Assembly (NCBI RefSeq): GCF_005869845.1
Contig: NZ_VAWF01000003.1
Coordinates: 62,001-126,000, forward strand
From: Fodinibius saliphilus
Lineage (GTDB): Bacteria; Bacteroidota; Rhodothermia; Balneolales; Balneolaceae
DNA length: 64,000 bases
Direction: 5' to 3'
Shown here: one piece after another, positions 32,002-42,800 of the stretch
How positions within the stretch are numbered: the stretch's first letter is position 1
Layout of the letters: every line of letters starts with the position of its first letter
Position numbers and translations under genes: made by a program
The notes under the pieces: generated by a model
Database searches by the model: none
The model's input: the letters and a program-made list of their open reading frames with translations, nothing else
What the model was told of the DNA's origin: nothing

Positions 32002-32886
32002 TTATTGCTGTTCAAAGCCATAATAGTCAGATACCGCCTCATAGTCCGAAATATCCAGCTGCTCAGGGATAATGGATTGTATCTGTGTTGTTTGATCTTC
32101 AGTACTACTGGATTCAATACGAACAATTTCAATGTGATCATATGCTTCCCCAGATCCCGTTTGCAAATGGATCCCAAACGTGGAGTTCCTGCGAAAGACC
32201 CGATATTCACTGGATCCATTTAATCCCCATCCCGGCATATGATAGGTGTAGCTACTAACTTGTAAATACACTACCCAGGCACTTTCCTCCGGATTAGTAA
32301 TTCCGGAAATACTGGCAGTGGCATAGTCATCAGCCGAAAAATCATGCCCGGGAAAGATATACCGTGTTACATTGGCATTACCATCAGCTCCCTTCAGGTT
32401 CAATGGAGTACTCCACCCATTACTGATTTTGTTAGGCCACGTTTTGGGACCATAAAGGTCGTAATTAGTTTTGTCCAGGTAAAAATCACCCACAGAACCT
32501 ACTGTGGCATCAGGCGGGCCGCTTCCGGAGTGGATTTCATTACCGTCAGCACCATCCTGTCCGTCGGCTCCGTCCTGTCCATCACTGCCCATTAATACGA
32601 TACCAGGACTTCCCCAGCCGTTACTGTCTTTTGGGCCGTATAGTTCACCGGTATTTTGATTCAGGTAATAATCACCACTTTTGCCGATATCAGCGGTTGG
32701 TGCCCCTTGGTCGGCATAGATGACACTGCCATCCTCACCGGACGGGCCAATCGGCCCTTGTGGACCTTCGATCCCTTGGGAGCCTTCAGGTCCCTGCGGA
32801 CCTTCACAGCTTACTAATGTCAACAAACAAGCTGCTGTTATGAGTAAAAAACTCTTTACGAATAGTTGTCTCAAGGTTGGTACCAT
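32002..32886 (-). CDS. collagen-like repeat lipoprotein
   Basis: A 294-residue lipoprotein. The leader ends in LVSC (Cys 28), directly followed by about eight Gly-X-Y triplets (GPQGPEGSQGIEGPQGP...). Two related modules of about 30 residues follow (GAPTADIGKSGDYYLNQNTG..LYGPK and GPPDATVGSVGDFYLDKTNY..LYGPK), separated by a second Gly-rich stretch (GQDGADGQDGADG). The C-terminal ~110 residues are a beta-rich domain without a family name. Such collagen-like lipoproteins are common in Bacteroidota and probably surface-exposed. The trimer-forming function is inferred from the triplets. Confidence 0.85.
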   Translation of the reverse strand: MVPTLRQLFVKSFLLITAACLLTLVSCEGPQGPEGSQGIEGPQGPIGPSGEDGSVIYADQGAPTADIGKSGDYYLNQNTGELYGPKDSNGWGSPGIVLMGSDGQDGADGQDGADGNEIHSGSGPPDATVGSVGDFYLDKTNYDLYGPKTWPNKISNGWSTPLNLKGADGNANVTRYIFPGHDFSADDYATASISGITNPEESAWVVYLQVSSYTYHMPGWGLNGSSEYRVFRRNSTFGIHLQTGSGEAYDHIEIVRIESSSTEDQTTQIQSIIPEQLDISDYEAVSDYYGFEQQ

Positions 32887-34429: not shown

Positions 34430-34609
34430 TGCGGTAATTTATTTTCACGTTGAAATATTTCGCTACCACAACGCCTGAAAGTGGCGGAGCATTCCTGCCG
34501 GCCGGTCGATTTTTTCAATGGGTGGGATAGAGGGAATTGATGAATTACTTGAAAATACTTTCTCGTAAACTACTTAAATATTTGTGGAGTGCAGTAATAA
34601 GAAAGCTGC

Positions 34610-34882
34610 TCAGGTCAAGGACCATTCTTTTGTTTCTTCATCTTGTTCAACTACCCCTTCCTTTTCCATCATTGCAAGTAAGGTTCTTGAGATGTGACCT
34701 TCATGCCCCTCATGGCCAGAGTAAATGCCAAGGGAGCGGCCTATCTCTGCGTTTTTCAAGCTGGTTTTAGAACTGTTAGCTAATAAGGAATATATGGCTG
34801 CTTTTAAATCAGAAATGGCTGATTGGGCAAGATGGTATGGGGTAGGCATAAATAATTGTTTAACAGTTTTTTTGTTTTTCAA
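34610..34882 (-). CDS. small winged-helix-like protein linked to the restriction enzyme
   Basis: A 90-residue protein. The C-terminal half, NAEIGRSLGIYSGHEGHEGH followed by ISRTLLAMMEKEGVV, looks like a winged helix-turn-helix with an unusual His/Gly-rich turn. It overlaps the end of the EcoRII-type endonuclease gene by 23 nt, so the two are co-translated. The product may be a subunit, a specificity module or a control protein of the endonuclease. There is no membrane segment. The family is not named with confidence. Confidence 0.75.
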   Translation of the reverse strand: MKNKKTVKQLFMPTPYHLAQSAISDLKAAIYSLLANSSKTSLKNAEIGRSLGIYSGHEGHEGHISRTLLAMMEKEGVVEQDEETKEWSLT

Positions 34883-36074
34883 TGATTAGTTCAATGAATT
34901 CAGCAAGAGTTAACAAAGTATTCTTTTGAGAGTCATAATAAGTATTATGAAGACCTCTAGGTAGAACTAGTTGTAAGTCATTCGAGATCATTTCTGTTGT
35001 TTGATTCTTGCTAATTCCAGGCTCTAGAGTAAACAAGTGTTTTTTTTGAATTTTATCAGCCTCAGATAAAACCTGTCTCCATCTATCTTTACAGGTGGAC
35101 TTAACCCCAAGCATATTTAAGCATCTCTTAGGGTAATCTTCTTTATGGTATTTATTTTCTCCAGGGAAAATAAAATCAGGTCTTGCTTTGTTTTCAGTTA
35201 TTGCATTATGGGTAAATTTTAAATCACAATCGGTGAATATTTGTTGTAAATGGTTTTCTAAAGCATAACCCATTCTTGATTTTCGCCTATTTTGGACACT
35301 GAGAGAAAAGGATATAAATGAATCTACATCATTAAAACCTTTGTCTAATTTTTTCTCAACTAAGTATTCTTCAAAAGTCTTGAATAGTATTTCTTCGTGT
35401 TCAATCCATTCAAGAATAGCTGCATCAGGGTTTTTTTGAGGGTCTATTTCATAAGGAAAGCTTTCCCTAGCAAATTTTGAAAACTCTTTTGTAGTTGGAA
35501 AACTATTGCCATACTTATTTAATATTTGGTCAAGATAGTTATTATCTGTTTCATCAACTTCGACACCTATCGTTTCTAATATAAGACGCGAAGCAAATGT
35601 TAGTTGAGGATCTTTGTATCCTTCAAAACGTTCTGCATATACATCTTTTTCATTAGTAAATAAGTCAAAAAGCCAAATTAATTGGCTTTCGACTGAAGAG
35701 CCTTTAGGTGTAATTATCATTAGAAAATTACCAACTTTATCTTCACATATCACTAATATGTCATTTGGCTCTGCTCTATATATTATTTCCTCAGCTATTG
35801 TTTTGTAATATATTCGATATTCTGGGCTACGATTTTCATCCTTTTTTCTAGCATCTGTCCAAGTAATTGATGTGTTTAAATAAGTCTTGTCTTCATCATC
35901 TATCCATACTAATTGTACGGGAATGTCTTTTCGATTTTCAGTGCCGAAAATTTTTATAAAATCATTAATACCTTGAAATTGGTGTTGGTTTGAAACGTTA
36001 GGACTTACTTCTGATGCAGTTAACCTTTTTGCACCAACACCGGAAAAATAATTTGATAAATAGCCTTGTTTCAT
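34860..36074 (-). CDS. EcoRII-type (type IIE) restriction endonuclease
   Basis: A 404-residue protein, the same length as EcoRII. The C-terminal catalytic domain keeps the EcoRII active-site layout with identical spacing: D300 (in RPDFIFPG), Y309, K325 and K329 (LGVKSTCKDRWRQV), against EcoRII D299, Y308, K324, K328, and a Glu at E273 in ALENHLQ. The N-terminal ~170 residues correspond in position to the EcoRII effector-binding domain, so a two-site type IIE enzyme is expected. EcoRII cuts at CCWGG. Whether this one does is unproven. It is AT-rich (hand count 17/60 G+C at 35761-35820) and divergent from the MIG-like gene. Confidence 0.9.
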   Translation of the reverse strand: MKQGYLSNYFSGVGAKRLTASEVSPNVSNQHQFQGINDFIKIFGTENRKDIPVQLVWIDDEDKTYLNTSITWTDARKKDENRSPEYRIYYKTIAEEIIYRAEPNDILVICEDKVGNFLMIITPKGSSVESQLIWLFDLFTNEKDVYAERFEGYKDPQLTFASRLILETIGVEVDETDNNYLDQILNKYGNSFPTTKEFSKFARESFPYEIDPQKNPDAAILEWIEHEEILFKTFEEYLVEKKLDKGFNDVDSFISFSLSVQNRRKSRMGYALENHLQQIFTDCDLKFTHNAITENKARPDFIFPGENKYHKEDYPKRCLNMLGVKSTCKDRWRQVLSEADKIQKKHLFTLEPGISKNQTTEMISNDLQLVLPRGLHNTYYDSQKNTLLTLAEFIELIIEKQKNC

Positions 36075-36142
36075 TGTGGTGGATACTATCTTCTAATGAT
36101 TATTCGAGCAAGAAACTAATAATTTATTTCTAAATTCCTAAC

Positions 36143-36158
36143 CTTGTTACTAAACAAG
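36143..36158. promoter_or_regulatory. inverted repeat in the divergent restriction/glycosylase promoter region
   Basis: CTTGTT-ACTA-AACAAG is a perfect 6-4-6 palindrome, 8 nt before the start of the MIG-like gene and 68 nt before the endonuclease start. It is a candidate operator for coordinated control. No cognate regulator is assigned. Confidence 0.4.
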
Positions 36159-36166
36159 TTATTAGA

Positions 36167-36826
36167 ATGGATATTGAACAAGATAAAATCATTTTTTTCC
36201 GTGAACGTTTATTGGATTGGTTTAAGGAGAATGGAAGAAAATTTCCATGGAGAAAGGAAGAGTTAACGAGCTATGAACTTGTTATAGCTGAAGTGTTATT
36301 GCAGAGAACTAGGGCAGAAACAGTCGCGAAGAATTTTGAGTCATTTCTGGGTAATTTCCCTTCTTGGGAATCGATTAATAAAACAGGTAAAAAAGAATTA
36401 GAGAAAGTATTAAAGCCTTTTGGGTTATACCGACAGAAAGCAAAGCGCCTTAAAAATCTTGCAGAAAAAATGGTGCAAAAAGAAGGTCAGTTTCCGGTGG
36501 TTAGGGAGGAGCTTGAAGAGATCCCGCTAGTGGGGCAGTATATTGCAAGTGCAGTTATTTCTTATGTTCACGAAAAAAAAGCACCATTACTTGATGTAAA
36601 TATGGCCCGATTACTTGAACGTTTCTTCGGGCCACGTGAGTTAGCAGATATTAGGTATGATCCATACTTACAAGAGCTTTCAAAAAAGGTTGTTGATCAT
36701 CCCGATCATCAAAAAATTAATTGGGCTATATTGGATTTTGCTTCTTCTATCTGTAAGAAAAGGAATCCCAAATGTAAGGTGTGCCCAATATCAGGCAGGT
36801 GTGAATTCTTTCAGAATGAGGGTTAA
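36167..36826 (+). CDS. MIG-like thymine-DNA glycosylase (HhH-GPD, 4Fe-4S)
   Basis: A 219-residue HhH-GPD glycosylase. The helix-hairpin-helix is IPLVGQYIASAV and the catalytic Asp is D143 (LLDVNMARLL). The iron-sulfur motif C-x6-C-x2-C-x5-C is C196, C203, C206, C212. The residue at the EndoIII lyase-Lys position is Tyr (Y125). MutY has Ser there, and the T:G glycosylase MIG of Methanothermobacter has Tyr126 with Asp144. MutY-specific C-terminal NUDIX-like domain is absent. It probably excises T from T:G mismatches made by deamination of 5-methylcytosine, the job Vsr does beside Dcm. Its 3' end overlaps the response-regulator gene by 36 nt. Confidence 0.88.
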   Translation: MDIEQDKIIFFRERLLDWFKENGRKFPWRKEELTSYELVIAEVLLQRTRAETVAKNFESFLGNFPSWESINKTGKKELEKVLKPFGLYRQKAKRLKNLAEKMVQKEGQFPVVREELEEIPLVGQYIASAVISYVHEKKAPLLDVNMARLLERFFGPRELADIRYDPYLQELSKKVVDHPDHQKINWAILDFASSICKKRNPKCKVCPISGRCEFFQNEG

Positions 36827-37186
36827 TAATTCATCATGAACATTATTTCTTTGAGATATTTTAATGTTTTGCTCCCCATCAACCATATCTGTAAGAGTTT
36901 GATCCATTTCTGAACTATAGAATATTATTGGGGTATCATTATCATAAAGCCTTATTTCAACAATTAAATTAGCTCCATTAACACGGACATTATCTAGGTT
37001 GTGGTCCATCATTATGATATCAGGTTCCCAGTCACGCATAACATTCCTAAAACCATCACCATTTTTGCTTAATTCTGGATCTGCCAATGAAATACCATTG
37101 TCTTCTAACTCATCCTCGATTCTTAAATGTACAGTATTTCCAAATGTTAAATCGTCTTCGATCCAGAAAATTTTTATTTCATTCAT
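36791..37186 (-). CDS. REC-only response regulator in the defence island
   Basis: A 131-residue receiver domain. Acidic pocket residues E10, D11 and D12 (FWIEDD) and the phospho-acceptor D61 (IIMMDHNLDN) are present, and the switch Ser lies in PIIFYSSEM. There is no output domain, so it must act by binding another protein or by phosphotransfer. The expected conserved Lys-Pro after strand 5 is not evident, so it may be atypical. Its start overlaps the stop of the dual-ATPase kinase gene (ATGA), which indicates coupled translation and a cognate pair. Confidence 0.82.
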   Translation of the reverse strand: MNEIKIFWIEDDLTFGNTVHLRIEDELEDNGISLADPELSKNGDGFRNVMRDWEPDIIMMDHNLDNVRVNGANLIVEIRLYDNDTPIIFYSSEMDQTLTDMVDGEQNIKISQRNNVHDELLTLILKEFTPA

Positions 37187-39462
37187 GGGAGAAATATTTT
37201 GAATTTAGTTCCTTCGTTAATTTTGCTTTTTACTTTTAATTCTGCATTCATTCGATCAATAATTTCTTTTATGTGGTAAAGCCCAATTCCTGATCCACCT
37301 TTATTTGATGTGTAACCATATTCGGTGATTTCATTTATCTTATCCTCAGGAATACCTTTACCATCATCTTCTATAACCAAGTAATGTCGGCTTCCTTCAT
37401 TCTCAAGTCGAACTTCAAATTTTGAAGCACCTGCTTTTTTTGAATTACTCAACATGTTATCAACTAAAATATTTAACTCAATTGGTCTAGTTTTAAATAT
37501 TTTAGGATTGCCCTCAGTCTTATTTTTGAAGCTTATCTCAACACCGTCATCGTTATATAAATCAACAATATTAGATATATATTCACGCAAATATTCACCG
37601 ATGTTTATTTCGATAGCATCTGTGTAAAGTTTAAAGTTTGCCTTAGTAGCAAACTGGCTAATATTCATTATCTTTTTATTTTCAAATACAGCTTGTTTGA
37701 TTAGATCCTGAATCCTTTCATGTGATAATTCTTTACCTCTTCGTAGCTTATTAAAAAGTGCAGTCAGTATATTGTCAATTTTAGACGCTGAAATGCCCAT
37801 ATGATGAATAAAGCTGATAACTTCATCAAAATCTTGAGACTTTACTGATTTTAGGAATAGGTTCTGAGATTCTTTTTCTTCTAGTTTTTCTTCAGTGGCT
37901 ACCCTTTTATTCCTTTCTTCTTTTTCTTTTTTTTCAGCTTCACTTTTAGCCTTCTTTAATTCTTTGACTTGCGTATTAACTTTCTTTACATCCTTTAATA
38001 GGTCTTCATTTTTTTTCTTTTCGGCAAGCTTTTCAAGATTACCTAGTAATGTCTCTGTGCTTTCACTTTGGGCTTCCTCAAGTTGTTCTAATAACTTATC
38101 CCCATATTCAAAATCAATGAGATTATCATTGCCTGATAAGTCAGCAATTAATTTGCTTATTCTATCTTGAAAAGTTTTTTCATCTTGTTCAAGGTCTTCG
38201 TCCTCCAATTTTTCAATACTAAGACCCCACTTTTGAACATCTACTACATATTTTTCAAGTCTTTTTAGAGTGTCCCAAAAAAAACTTTCTAATTGTTCAT
38301 AAGCCTTGGTTTTGATTAATCCATCGCCTCTACTTGTTGTTTCTCTTAGCTCATCGTTATCAGAATTAATATTTATTTGTCCAATTAACTCTCTTGTTCC
38401 TAAGTATCTACCAAAACCTTGTGCTTTGCGAGCATCAATTTTTAATGGATCTTCACCTGGTTCACCATATGGATATATTCTAAAGCCGTTTTTATAGATG
38501 AATACATGTCCATATTCCTTAGATCTTAATCCCATTCTTCTAGTAAATGTTACCTTAGCCGATCGATTTAAATAAAATAAATCAACTGAGATATCATATA
38601 ATTTTTTGTAAGGGTTTTTTTCTTCAACCTTATATATAAGAGTCCCCCCATCTAATAATTCTGTCGTTATATACTCTTTATCTTCACTTATGTAAGACTT
38701 TATCTTAGTGGTTTTAATTTCTAGTGTATCGAATATTCTATTTTGTATTTCCCCATTTACACGTTTCCTGTAGTCTTCTTCTTTGCGATCTTGCTCTTTT
38801 TCTTCTGGGACATTTAGAAATATTTTGAAACTTTGGCTCCCTTCATCATTTGTTGGGTTTATTAACTTTGCCAAAGAGCGTTTTAAACGGAGTAGCTTTT
38901 TTCTATCCCAATCACTTCTTAAATCAGTGATTTCTAATACTGTACCATGTTCAAGCCCATAGTAACTTTCATCCCTTGTCTCGTGCTGTATCGTTACATT
39001 AATAAATTCATCTTGTAAATCCTCTTCAAAAAGGGTCCAATCAGTTACAATGACTTCTGTTTTAGCGTCTTTTTCTTTTTTGGTTGATTCAAGCAGCAGT
39101 TCTTTTCCTAACCTGTCACAAGAGAAACGGCCAATGCCTTTTGCTCCAGCAAATGCTCGCTTTTGATAAATATTGTCCCTATAGTCAAAAGAATCATCTT
39201 CAGTACCTTCTTTTTTAGCAGAATAAGCAACAAAAAGCCACTTATTTTTAATATCCTCCAAACCCATACCTTTTCCATTATCTTTAATAATAATCTTAGA
39301 GTTTTCGGAGTAGATATTTTCAAAGGTAATGTCTACCCTTGTGGCGTAAGCATCATAGGAGTTTTTCACAAGTTCGAAAACAGCAATGTGATCATCAGTA
39401 ATAAGATCCCGACCAATGATGTCTTTAAGGGCAGAGCTGATTTTAAATGATAAATCTTCCAT
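37183..39462 (-). CDS. dual Bergerat-fold protein: Hsp90/MORC-like ATPase fused to a histidine kinase
   Basis: A 759-residue soluble protein. The N-terminal GHKL ATPase (about 1-250) has the N-box FELVKNSYDA (E30, N34), IKDNGKGM (60-66) and GAKGIGR (106-112), like Hsp90/MutL/MORC proteins. A Glu/Lys-rich coiled coil covers about 460-540. Residues FIHHMG (H553/H554) resemble an H-box, followed by a second GHKL ATPase (about 640-759) with VDNMLSNSKKA, IEDDGKGIP and GGSGIGLYHI, typical of histidine kinases. There is no membrane segment, so it senses something in the cytoplasm. The REC partner is encoded directly downstream. GHKL ATPases linked to restriction systems are known, but this double fusion is unusual. 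Confidence 0.85.
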   Translation of the reverse strand: MEDLSFKISSALKDIIGRDLITDDHIAVFELVKNSYDAYATRVDITFENIYSENSKIIIKDNGKGMGLEDIKNKWLFVAYSAKKEGTEDDSFDYRDNIYQKRAFAGAKGIGRFSCDRLGKELLLESTKKEKDAKTEVIVTDWTLFEEDLQDEFINVTIQHETRDESYYGLEHGTVLEITDLRSDWDRKKLLRLKRSLAKLINPTNDEGSQSFKIFLNVPEEKEQDRKEEDYRKRVNGEIQNRIFDTLEIKTTKIKSYISEDKEYITTELLDGGTLIYKVEEKNPYKKLYDISVDLFYLNRSAKVTFTRRMGLRSKEYGHVFIYKNGFRIYPYGEPGEDPLKIDARKAQGFGRYLGTRELIGQININSDNDELRETTSRGDGLIKTKAYEQLESFFWDTLKRLEKYVVDVQKWGLSIEKLEDEDLEQDEKTFQDRISKLIADLSGNDNLIDFEYGDKLLEQLEEAQSESTETLLGNLEKLAEKKKNEDLLKDVKKVNTQVKELKKAKSEAEKKEKEERNKRVATEEKLEEKESQNLFLKSVKSQDFDEVISFIHHMGISASKIDNILTALFNKLRRGKELSHERIQDLIKQAVFENKKIMNISQFATKANFKLYTDAIEINIGEYLREYISNIVDLYNDDGVEISFKNKTEGNPKIFKTRPIELNILVDNMLSNSKKAGASKFEVRLENEGSRHYLVIEDDGKGIPEDKINEITEYGYTSNKGGSGIGLYHIKEIIDRMNAELKVKSKINEGTKFKIFLP

Positions 39463-39477
39463 TAAAATAGTTATTCG

Positions 39478-40479
39478 ATGAATATACTTGAGTTTTTAAG
39501 AAAAGATGTGGTTGCCAATTGTTATAAAACCAAATCTTTTAGTAACGCTTGGGAAATATGGGGCAAGTTAATTAAACAAAAACTAGGGAAAAATTATAAT
39601 TGGGATGACATTTTAAACTTAGGTGAAGAATTATCCGAGGTATTTTTATCAACAAGGGGAGATGTTGAAGAAGGATTAAGTGTTGCTGAAGCAAATAGCA
39701 AAGCTTCTACTTCGGGTACAGCTTGGGAATGCTTAGTTGCTTGGTACCTAAACCTAGTATTTGTTAATAGTAGGGCTGTTGTTTTTAAAAAGACAGGAGA
39801 CGTGCCAACTCCACTTACAGATGGTCTTGAAGTGTTACACAAAAATACTAAAACGAATTCTGAGTCAGATTTGCTAGTCGTAGTTTTTCCTGACACTCCT
39901 CATTTTACCGATGAAATATTACAAGTTCCTATAACTAATGAGCGGTCAGTGCCTTATGTGCCAGATAAAAATATGAGACCAGCAAATCTATTTTCGGACT
40001 CTTACCCAGATAAAAGTTCGATTCAAGCATATGTAGATAAAGTAACAGAAGAAAAAATAGATGAATTTGAGGTCGGGGTAATACAGTGTAAAACAAATTG
40101 GAATGAAAATTCACAAATTCCAATGCTTTGGGACATTATCTATAGGCTTGGGGATAATGTAGATCAAGACATTCCCAACTTTAAAATTGGTGCGAATGGT
40201 TTTAGTAAGATGCAGTTGAAAAAATTCACATATTCATTTGTTACTGTACCAACTAATCCCCGGGCAAATTACAAAGCAACTTCTCTTGCTGTAAATAGGG
40301 TTAAGAACTTAACTGGCGGTAACTATTGGGGGTTCCCAAGGAAGCAAAGTGTTGCTGGTTCAATTAAAGAAATTTTTGATAATAATTTCATGAATGCCTT
40401 TGATGGTAGTATCAGGGAAAGTTTACAAGGTGCATTACATAATGATCTTAATTCTTTCGAGTATTTTCGCTTGGATTAG
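39478..40479 (+). CDS. predicted PD-(D/E)xK-type nuclease of the defence island
   Basis: A 333-residue protein. A helix with GTAWECLVAWY (E84) is followed by the strand SESDLLVVV (D131) and the strand VGVIQCKTNWN (Q203, K205). This is the order E..D..(E/Q)xK of restriction-endonuclease folds. The trailing NENSQIPMLWDIIY is a strong family-like signature, but I cannot name the family. There is no signal peptide. Its start is 15 nt from the divergent kinase start and its stop overlaps the methyltransferase stop by 4 nt. It may be a second restriction enzyme for the same methyltransferase or an effector controlled by the kinase. Confidence 0.75.
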   Translation: MNILEFLRKDVVANCYKTKSFSNAWEIWGKLIKQKLGKNYNWDDILNLGEELSEVFLSTRGDVEEGLSVAEANSKASTSGTAWECLVAWYLNLVFVNSRAVVFKKTGDVPTPLTDGLEVLHKNTKTNSESDLLVVVFPDTPHFTDEILQVPITNERSVPYVPDKNMRPANLFSDSYPDKSSIQAYVDKVTEEKIDEFEVGVIQCKTNWNENSQIPMLWDIIYRLGDNVDQDIPNFKIGANGFSKMQLKKFTYSFVTVPTNPRANYKATSLAVNRVKNLTGGNYWGFPRKQSVAGSIKEIFDNNFMNAFDGSIRESLQGALHNDLNSFEYFRLD

Positions 40480-42299
40480 TCAATATTTGTAAGTATTTGC
40501 ATCGCTATAGCTCTAGCCATTAATGGAGGAACTGCATTGCCAACAAGTGTGTATTGGGGAACATCATGTTTTCTACGACTACCACCTGTGGTTCTTTTAC
40601 CCTGGAACACAAAGGAGTCGTCAAAAGATTGTAGGCGGGCCATTTCCCTAACACTTAATGCCCTAGGTTCTTTATAGTGAATAAAGTCATCAGGCAAAGT
40701 GACGATTGTAGGAGAGGTACTGTTGGGGTCGAGCAAGTTATAGTTTCGTTTCTTTGTACTTACTCCTTTCTCTTTTAATTCTTCTTTGGCGTTATCATAA
40801 CTGCCATTCTTTTGTATTATTTGGAGCCTCTTTATTATATCGGCAGTATGATTACTAGCTTTATGATTTGGCAGTTTAACGCGATTTAAGTTCGCACTAT
40901 TAATTTTTCCTCTACCATCATGGTAATAGTTTTCTTCAATCGAATACTTTTCTAGTAATCTGCCTTCTCTTGACCACTCTGAATAGGTTTTGCCATTTTT
41001 CTTATTTAGGCTACCATCAATATTTCTTTTGGGTAGATACTGGCCGTTCGTCGAGTTGGTACTATATTCTTTGATGTGTCCACCACTTTTAAGAGTTTCA
41101 AGGTCATGAAGCGCTTCTTTAATAGTGACTTTATTTTGTGATAAAACTGTAGGGGTTGGCTTATTTGTAATCTTATTTTGGCCTTTTTTTGAAGCTATAA
41201 ATATAACTCGATGACGTTCTTGGGGAACTCCATAATCAGAAGCATATAAGTCAAATTCTTTTTCAACATGATAAAGGCTAGCATTTTTTACTTTTTCAGA
41301 AAGAGTATTACCTGTTTCTTCTACAATTTCTACGAGATCATTAAGGCATTCGTCAAGAGGCTTTAGGAAAATATTCAATCCTTTTTTTAATAAGGAAAAG
41401 TGTTCAAAATCTAAGTTGTCAATGGCATTTTGGATATGATTTGTGATGCTTTGACCATCGATAAATTGTAAGAAGTTATTAAACCCTGCTTCAAAATTAT
41501 CGTTATCTATATCACAGGCTGACTTAAAGTTGAGAACACTCCTATTAATTTCTTTAAGCTGTTCCCAATTCGATAGTATTCTTAATCCATGTCGGATGGT
41601 ATTTATTTCCTCGTTATTTTTGCTTTTTGCATAGCTAATATGTTTTGCAGTTAAGTCTTTTAGGAGTTTTTGAAGGGTTGTTACGAATTCTGTATTGAAA
41701 GAAGTTGAACTATTATTTTTTTCGCTTTTTATACGTTGAATGTATAGGTCAAATGCTGCTTTGTTTTCATTTTTAATAGTATGTCTTAATTGCTCAGCTG
41801 TGTTAATAATATCGTCTAATTCAGAGCGGTCAACTATTGAATTAATTCTTTCAATAATTTTCTTCAGAAAACGCCCCCCTTCTTTATTTTTTAATCCTGA
41901 AACATTTTCCATAACAAAGTATTTAGGCTTTAAAACCTCAATAACTTCTAAGTACTTACTGAAAAGTTTATCTTTCTTGTCAAACTTTCTACGTCTACCC
42001 GCTAAGCTAAAACTTTGGCAAGGTGGCCCTCCTGTTATTACATCAATACTTTCCCCGTCAAGTTCATCTTGTAACACATTAATAAAATCTGGGTCAGTTA
42101 TATCTTTTCTTAAAAATTTCGTTTTAAGTCCAAGTTGTTCGTTATATCGAACTCTATGCGTCAATTCACAATTTTTGTTTATATCACTGGCTAATAGGAA
42201 ATCATACTCTTTCCCATCCTTTTTTGCCTGGAGGAATCCTTCACTGAATCCACCAGCGCCAGCAAATAGATCAATAAATGTGATTTTCTTGTTACTCAT
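40476..42299 (-). CDS. cytosine-5 DNA methyltransferase with a large helical insertion
   Basis: A 607-residue m5C methyltransferase. Motif I is FIDLFAGAGGFSEG (8-21), motif IV is GGPPCQSFS with nucleophile C94, motif VI is ENVSG (E131), and motif VIII is YGVPQERHRVIFIA (357-369). Motif IX/X is near ALSVREMARLQSF and YTLVGNAVPP. Between motifs VI and VIII there are about 190 extra helical residues (about 150-340) where most enzymes have 20-40. It should protect host DNA from the island's nuclease(s). The target sequence is unknown, and CCWGG is a candidate only because of the EcoRII-like partner. Confidence 0.93.
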   Translation of the reverse strand: MSNKKITFIDLFAGAGGFSEGFLQAKKDGKEYDFLLASDINKNCELTHRVRYNEQLGLKTKFLRKDITDPDFINVLQDELDGESIDVITGGPPCQSFSLAGRRRKFDKKDKLFSKYLEVIEVLKPKYFVMENVSGLKNKEGGRFLKKIIERINSIVDRSELDDIINTAEQLRHTIKNENKAAFDLYIQRIKSEKNNSSTSFNTEFVTTLQKLLKDLTAKHISYAKSKNNEEINTIRHGLRILSNWEQLKEINRSVLNFKSACDIDNDNFEAGFNNFLQFIDGQSITNHIQNAIDNLDFEHFSLLKKGLNIFLKPLDECLNDLVEIVEETGNTLSEKVKNASLYHVEKEFDLYASDYGVPQERHRVIFIASKKGQNKITNKPTPTVLSQNKVTIKEALHDLETLKSGGHIKEYSTNSTNGQYLPKRNIDGSLNKKNGKTYSEWSREGRLLEKYSIEENYYHDGRGKINSANLNRVKLPNHKASNHTADIIKRLQIIQKNGSYDNAKEELKEKGVSTKKRNYNLLDPNSTSPTIVTLPDDFIHYKEPRALSVREMARLQSFDDSFVFQGKRTTGGSRRKHDVPQYTLVGNAVPPLMARAIAMQILTNID

Positions 42300-42800
42300 A
42301 TCAATATTTGACCCGATTGTTATTACTCAACTTATATAGTAAAAAATTGGACTGACACCATTATGTCACCTCAATCTAGGAAAGATTGGGTGTAGCAATA
42401 ATATCTTAAGGAATAGAATTGAAAAAGTCCAGGATTTGATCCTGTTAAATTTAAGGTATAGATAACTAAAATATTAGCTAAATAATGAGGAAATATAGAT
42501 TTTTGGAAAAGTAAGTTATTCAGAAAGTTTAAGTTACCTATCTTAGTGATGATTCTTTATCCAGAAAGTCATATACGTTGTGCGTTTTTACTCGTAAAGG
42601 GAAATAGGGCAGTAATACTAGTGAACGAAATAACCGGCACTTCAAAAATAGGGGTGTGTAAGGTAAAGTAATTCGTTGATGCGTGAAGATTACTCTTTAG
42701 CTACTAGGCGCACTTGAAAAGGGAGACTGCCGCGGTCTTCCGGAAAGTCGCCGGAAGCCCTCGCAGTGACATTGCTTTTATTACAAATACATCAACGCCC

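Follow-up and report, generated by a model that had tools for sequence, protein, structure and literature searches.

What might be the function of a protein that carries two Bergerat-type ATPase domains in a single chain? This question is raised by an open reading frame of Fodinibius saliphilus at positions 37183-39462 (minus strand) of the window, the whole stretch of 64,000 nucleotides that was analyzed here. The reading frame encodes 759 amino acids, and the same span on the plus strand is full of stop codons. The original prediction described the product as an Hsp90/MORC-like ATPase joined to a histidine kinase, with the N-terminal ATPase as a possible sensor. It included neither the response regulator gene overlapping the kinase gene, nor the surrounding restriction-modification (R-M) island, nor the earlier description of this protein architecture.

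Domains and ATP sites of the sensor kinase

For identification of the domains we applied Pfam, sequence alignment, AlphaFold2 and structure comparison. Pfam revealed HATPase_c_3 at residues 25-140 (6.1e-26) and HATPase_c at residues 660-759 (2.6e-24), both well above chance. The AlphaFold2 model of the monomer (73 homologs as input, mean pLDDT 78) consists of a GHKL domain with an S5-like domain (residues ~7-413), a linker and coiled coil (~425-538), a helical DHp hairpin (544-574, which carries H553, and 581-606) and a second GHKL domain, the CA/HATPase_c domain (~617-759). Confidence is low for residues 79-108, which form the ATP lid region, and for residues 530-543. Residues 7-413 were aligned by VIA-align with the ATPase cassette of MORC3 (Z 19.9 over 289 aligned residues, 4.2 A) and with Hsp90 (Z ~18), residues 546-759 with HK853 and YycG over their DHp-CA regions (Z ~19). 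Foldseek concurs with these matches. Two ATPase domains in one protein had been predicted, and both the Pfam matches and the two separate GHKL folds of the model bear this out. The same is true for the charged coiled coil between them (50% D/E/K/R over residues 463-540) and for the absence of a membrane segment, the maximum of the 19-residue hydropathy being 0.89. A PADLOC scan of the kinase gave weak partial GHKL matches only, no plasmid record covering 80% of the kinase was found, and scans for promoters and terminators gave results at or below chance.

Both ATP sites are intact, as had been proposed. The N-terminal site contains E30/N34, D61-G63-G65 and G106-K108-G109-G111, the C-terminal site D668/N669/N673, D699-G701-G703 and G723-G725-G727. 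We aligned 88 relatives of the kinase, 86 of which extend to the C-terminal features. The N-terminal ATP-site residues are 100% conserved among the 88 relatives, E30, N34, D61, G63, G65, K108, G109, G111 and K303 being invariant, and N673, G725, G727 and G751 are present in 86/86 of those reaching that far. In MutL and Hsp90 the catalytic glutamate goes along with ATP hydrolysis. By analogy, the conservation of E30 suggests that the N-terminal module may truly hydrolyze ATP.

An H-box had been assumed at H553/H554. H553 is located in the DHp hairpin and was found in 86/86 relatives, but position 554 is variable (Q in 40, H in 32), and only the first histidine of the pair could be retained. A DHp hairpin with a conserved histidine beside a CA domain is characteristic of two-component kinases; unlike in HisKA H-boxes, no acidic residue directly follows H553. 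Phosphotransfer at this histidine is predicted from its conservation and from the fold. The N-terminal half is closest in structure to MORC3 and Hsp90, in line with the original prediction, but the S5 motif specific for MORC proteins is absent from all 73 relatives compared. A role of the N-terminal ATPase as the sensor is the natural reading, because the module is structurally closest to the MORC3/Hsp90 clamps, and the overall interpretation of the protein is supported in part.

Gene neighborhood and operon in relatives

The kinase gene is located in a low-GC island of ~8 kb (34600..42400) which two sister genomes lack. The GC content of the island is 33.6%, compared to 45.3% elsewhere in the window. 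The oxidoreductase and permease genes that flank it are 1.9 kb and <0.1 kb apart in the two sister genomes, which belong to the same genus, with no island gene in between. Therefore, an insertion most likely brought in the island, which was acquired horizontally.

Downstream of the kinase gene lies a gene for a single-domain response regulator of 131 amino acids (36791..37186, minus strand), the start of which overlaps the stop of the kinase gene by 4 bp. The Response_reg match of its product (3.9e-06) is below the Pfam cut-off. The phospho-acceptor D61, the acidic pair E10/D11 and S91 are present, while a clear conserved lysine is missing in the last active-site loop. The phospho-acceptor was found in 79/79 sequences having a residue at this position, which together with the gene overlap marks the protein as the cognate receiver of the kinase. 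A PADLOC scan of the regulator gave no match. Because it consists of the receiver only and has no output domain, it would have to act by binding a partner, the most plausible being the EcoRII-type nuclease, the product of the 39478-40479 gene or the methyltransferase of the island.

The last of these is a DNA cytosine-5 methyltransferase of 607 amino acids (40476..42299, minus strand, identified by Pfam), which shows only distant similarity to the ~410-aa methyltransferase family accompanying most relatives of the kinase. Between both genes lies the gene for an orphan protein of 333 amino acids (39478..40479, plus strand). This gene diverges from the kinase gene, 15 bp separating the two start codons, and runs towards the methyltransferase gene. 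The orphan protein gave no match in Pfam, PADLOC, NCBIfam, PDB sequences, plasmids, viral contigs or 296 genomes of the phylum. A PD-(D/E)xK-like motif, SDLLVV...IQCK, was seen by eye, and the protein is a possible nuclease; the regular expression D-x(8-30)-[EQ]xK failed to pick out this motif. On the other side of the regulator, Pfam identified an HhH-GPD DNA glycosylase of the MutY/EndoIII type (36167..36826, plus strand), which is a candidate repair gene for the deamination of 5-methylcytosine. The same glycosylase gene adjoins the regulator in a related locus, L048. It is followed by an EcoRII-C type restriction endonuclease of 404 amino acids (34860..36074, minus strand; PF09019 over the full profile length, 5.2e-69) and by an overlapping gene for a small protein of 90 amino acids with a TTG start and no family match (34610..34882, minus strand). 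Adjoining the island, a collagen-like protein of the lipoprotein type is encoded (32002..32886, minus strand), whose GPQG/DGADG repeats are specified by 18-bp tandem repeats.

A genome scan revealed 244 relatives of the kinase, and the best 80 of these loci were fetched, which are the closest relatives by conserved peptide patterns, so that more distant architectures are under-sampled. The relatives belong to Bacteroidota, Bacillota, Pseudomonadota, Verrucomicrobiota, Planctomycetota, Chloroflexota and other phyla. The lineage is widespread and largely undescribed. The gene order among the best 80 loci is C5-methyltransferase, kinase, response regulator. The methyltransferase gene is found immediately upstream of the kinase gene in 73/80 loci and within two genes in 76/80, and the regulator gene lies downstream in 79/80, mostly with the 4-bp overlap seen in the window. 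In 15 viral or provirus contigs from a separate collection the regulator was detected in all 15 and a linked methyltransferase in 14. In a viral or provirus contig (L148, 5001..9895) an opposite-strand ORF of 494 amino acids, which may belong to an inserted mobile element, interrupts the kinase gene.

Most relatives have one conserved methyltransferase family in common; the window and the group of L074, L078 and L086 have unrelated ones. In these three loci the kinase-regulator pair occurs with an HpaII endonuclease, and in L102 a type III-like ResIII gene adjoins the pair instead. The pair has thus been re-partnered with HpaII, with ResIII and with the R-M genes of the window. An HNH nuclease directly follows the regulator in only 4/76 loci, and the core of methyltransferase, kinase and regulator is usually without a restriction nuclease directly downstream (not all other neighbors were annotated). 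A second methyltransferase and conserved companions (clusters c16 and c42) recur downstream of the core operon in L098, L103, L112 and L122, which suggests a larger compound system.

Three kinds of regulators were found among the relatives. Most have ~270-340 amino acids and a helical C-terminal domain. In this domain R246 and H251 (R-x4-H) are invariant in 54 regulators, and N247 and A250 are conserved to at least 90%. Matches below the Pfam threshold among 52 regulators were HEPN_Swt1 (9), HEPN_MAE_28990 (8) and HEPN_RiboL-PSP (6; best 2.2e-06). The C-terminal domain is likely a HEPN-like RNase, judging from these sequence features. It is mostly helical in the predicted model of a regulator of this type. 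In a structure search with this regulator nearly all matches were receiver-like, receiver domains filling the lists, and a profile search of PDB sequences with just the HEPN-like domain gave no match. In a Sulfurimonas genome, a calcineurin-like phosphoesterase gene (L127:13213-13887) overlaps the gene of a HEPN-type regulator. The second kind has ~225-248 amino acids and is followed by a separate protein with GHG...C.S motifs, whose histidine and cysteine are invariant in 9/9 sequences. This protein is predicted to be caspase-like from the motif; its PADLOC scan gave no match. Regulators of the third kind, including that of the window, consist of the receiver only (124-142 amino acids).

The outputs swap on the kinase tree, where two changes are required for receiver-only regulators, at least four for caspase-like and at least five for HEPN outputs. 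The window represents one of the two receiver-only origins. Its clade comprises eight members, all of them receiver-only (SH-aLRT 98). An association with conventional R-M systems has arisen at least twice among the receiver-only branches. Defence systems typically exchange their effectors while the sensor stays the same. HEPN or caspase outputs of this operon were not described in the literature searched, which lay outside most subscription journals and bioRxiv.

Proposed function and alternatives

The window system is most likely a defence or R-M surveillance phosphorelay. More precisely, we consider it somewhat better than an even chance that the protein is a soluble two-component kinase with a MORC/Hsp90-type ATPase as input, which serves an R-M or methylation-linked defence island. 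ATP binding would close the N-terminal module into a dimeric clamp around DNA or an R-M protein, the signal being methylation or R-M status. Closure may reorient the coiled coil and allow the C-terminal domain to phosphorylate H553, from where the phosphate would move on to D61 of the neighboring receiver. Once phosphorylated, the regulator of most relatives would switch on the fused HEPN RNase or the neighboring caspase-like protease and stop an infected or methylation-compromised cell.

For the core operon, a methylation-linked abortive defence can be proposed tentatively, at a little less than an even chance: the methyltransferase would mark self, the kinase would read unmarked DNA or loss of the methyltransferase, and the phosphorelay would fire an exchangeable effector. 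It is just as tentative that the HEPN RNase or caspase-like protease takes the place of the restriction nuclease in such a system, and that the window represents a receiver-only branch which has become associated with a restriction system of the conventional type. If true, self/non-self recognition based on DNA methylation would be tied to two-component signalling whose killer outputs can be exchanged; no description of this combination was found in the literature searched. It would also suggest why many methyltransferases have no restriction nuclease alongside. Furthermore, what a bacterial clamp of the MORC/Hsp90 type senses would become tractable, since it could be read out directly as kinase activity.

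The same genes could belong to ordinary R-M regulation, in which kinase and receiver tune the expression or activity of methyltransferase and nuclease, e.g., on entry into a new host, without any shutdown of the cell. The receiver-only regulators of the window clade and the partnering with complete R-M systems like HpaII fit this explanation, and signalling that controls R-M systems was proposed by Bellieny-Rabelo et al. (2021; PMC8011034). However, a DNA-binding domain is absent from the receiver-only regulators, HEPN-like or caspase-like outputs occur in most relatives, and an HNH nuclease is rarely found directly downstream. We therefore regard it as rather unlikely, if worth keeping in mind.

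It is still less probable that the N-terminal module is a DNA-remodelling or scaffold ATPase of an R-M complex and the kinase half mainly a nucleotide-gated dimerization unit instead of a phosphodonor. Such a role in R-M complexes was proposed for MORC/paraMORC proteins, and it would agree with the match to MORC3 and Hsp90, with the R-M context and with an H-box that lacks the usual acidic neighbor. Nevertheless, the strict conservation of H553, of the CA domain and of the receiver aspartate as well as the nearly constant presence of the receiver gene are hard to explain without phosphotransfer. A chance fusion or degenerate remnant without function has next to no probability. Only the low-GC, horizontally acquired setting would speak for it; both ATP sites are intact and conserved across several phyla, neither the open reading frames nor the 4-bp overlap has been lost, and this conservation refutes a chance fusion as well as a degenerate remnant. 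The defence or surveillance phosphorelay is compared below with described systems.

Comparison with known systems

The architecture of a two-ATPase kinase beside a C5-methyltransferase and a regulator is not new. Proteins with HATPase_c_3, HEF_HK and HATPase_c domains and Response_reg_2 regulators beside C5 methyltransferases were described by Bellieny-Rabelo et al. (2021; PMC8011034), and the N-terminal ATPase was proposed there as the sensor. The HEF_HK system (PF19191, PF19192) and the window lineage have in common a soluble kinase with N-terminal HATPase_c_3, DHp and C-terminal HATPase_c, a linked C5 methyltransferase and regulator in the order methyltransferase, kinase, regulator, and an R-M neighborhood. 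The gene order was the same in three HEF_HK loci inspected, but their kinases have ~1000 and their regulators 528-575 amino acids, compared to ~760 and 125-340 in the window lineage. HEF_HK (PF19191) did not match the window kinase or its relatives L043 and L036 at E values up to 1, and no match was found in the whole genome of the window. The window regulator and the sampled relatives match PF00072-type receivers only and not Response_reg_2 (PF19192). The window lineage is thus a parallel to HEF_HK which is missed by these Pfam models. HEPN-like and caspase-like outputs are present in the window lineage, whereas the accessible part of PMC8011034 does not mention them for HEF_HK.

MORC/paraMORC ATPases (Iyer et al., 2008; PMC2292703) share with the window kinase the N-terminal GHKL domain with intact ATP motifs, the S5-like fold and the location in R-M operons. 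The window kinase differs by its histidine kinase C-terminal half, and it does not belong to MORC proper, the motif GhXhhpXXRhl being found in 0/73 sequences. In R-M loci, Ymh HEPN-paraMORC fusions also link a paraMORC ATPase with a HEPN RNase, and an action like that of the PrrC/RloC guards was proposed for them (Anantharaman et al., 2013; PMC3710099). There, HEPN is fused to the ATPase, whereas the link in the window lineage runs via histidine kinase and receiver.

The sensor of Detocs carries TPRs, and the system is not known to include a methyltransferase. By its description in PMC11249213, Detocs shares with the window lineage a two-component defence with a cell-harming effector, the best-described one being an ATP-cleaving PNP domain. 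In BbrUII/HgiDII (NF050001) and the GHKL-type Shedu VcSduA (PMC12137116), an N-terminal GHKL ATPase is likewise thought to gate a C-terminal defence effector. The match of NF050001 to the window kinase covers the N-terminal 200 residues only and is far below the cut-off. In both systems the chain that carries the ATPase also carries a nuclease as the effector, whereas the window protein has a histidine kinase.
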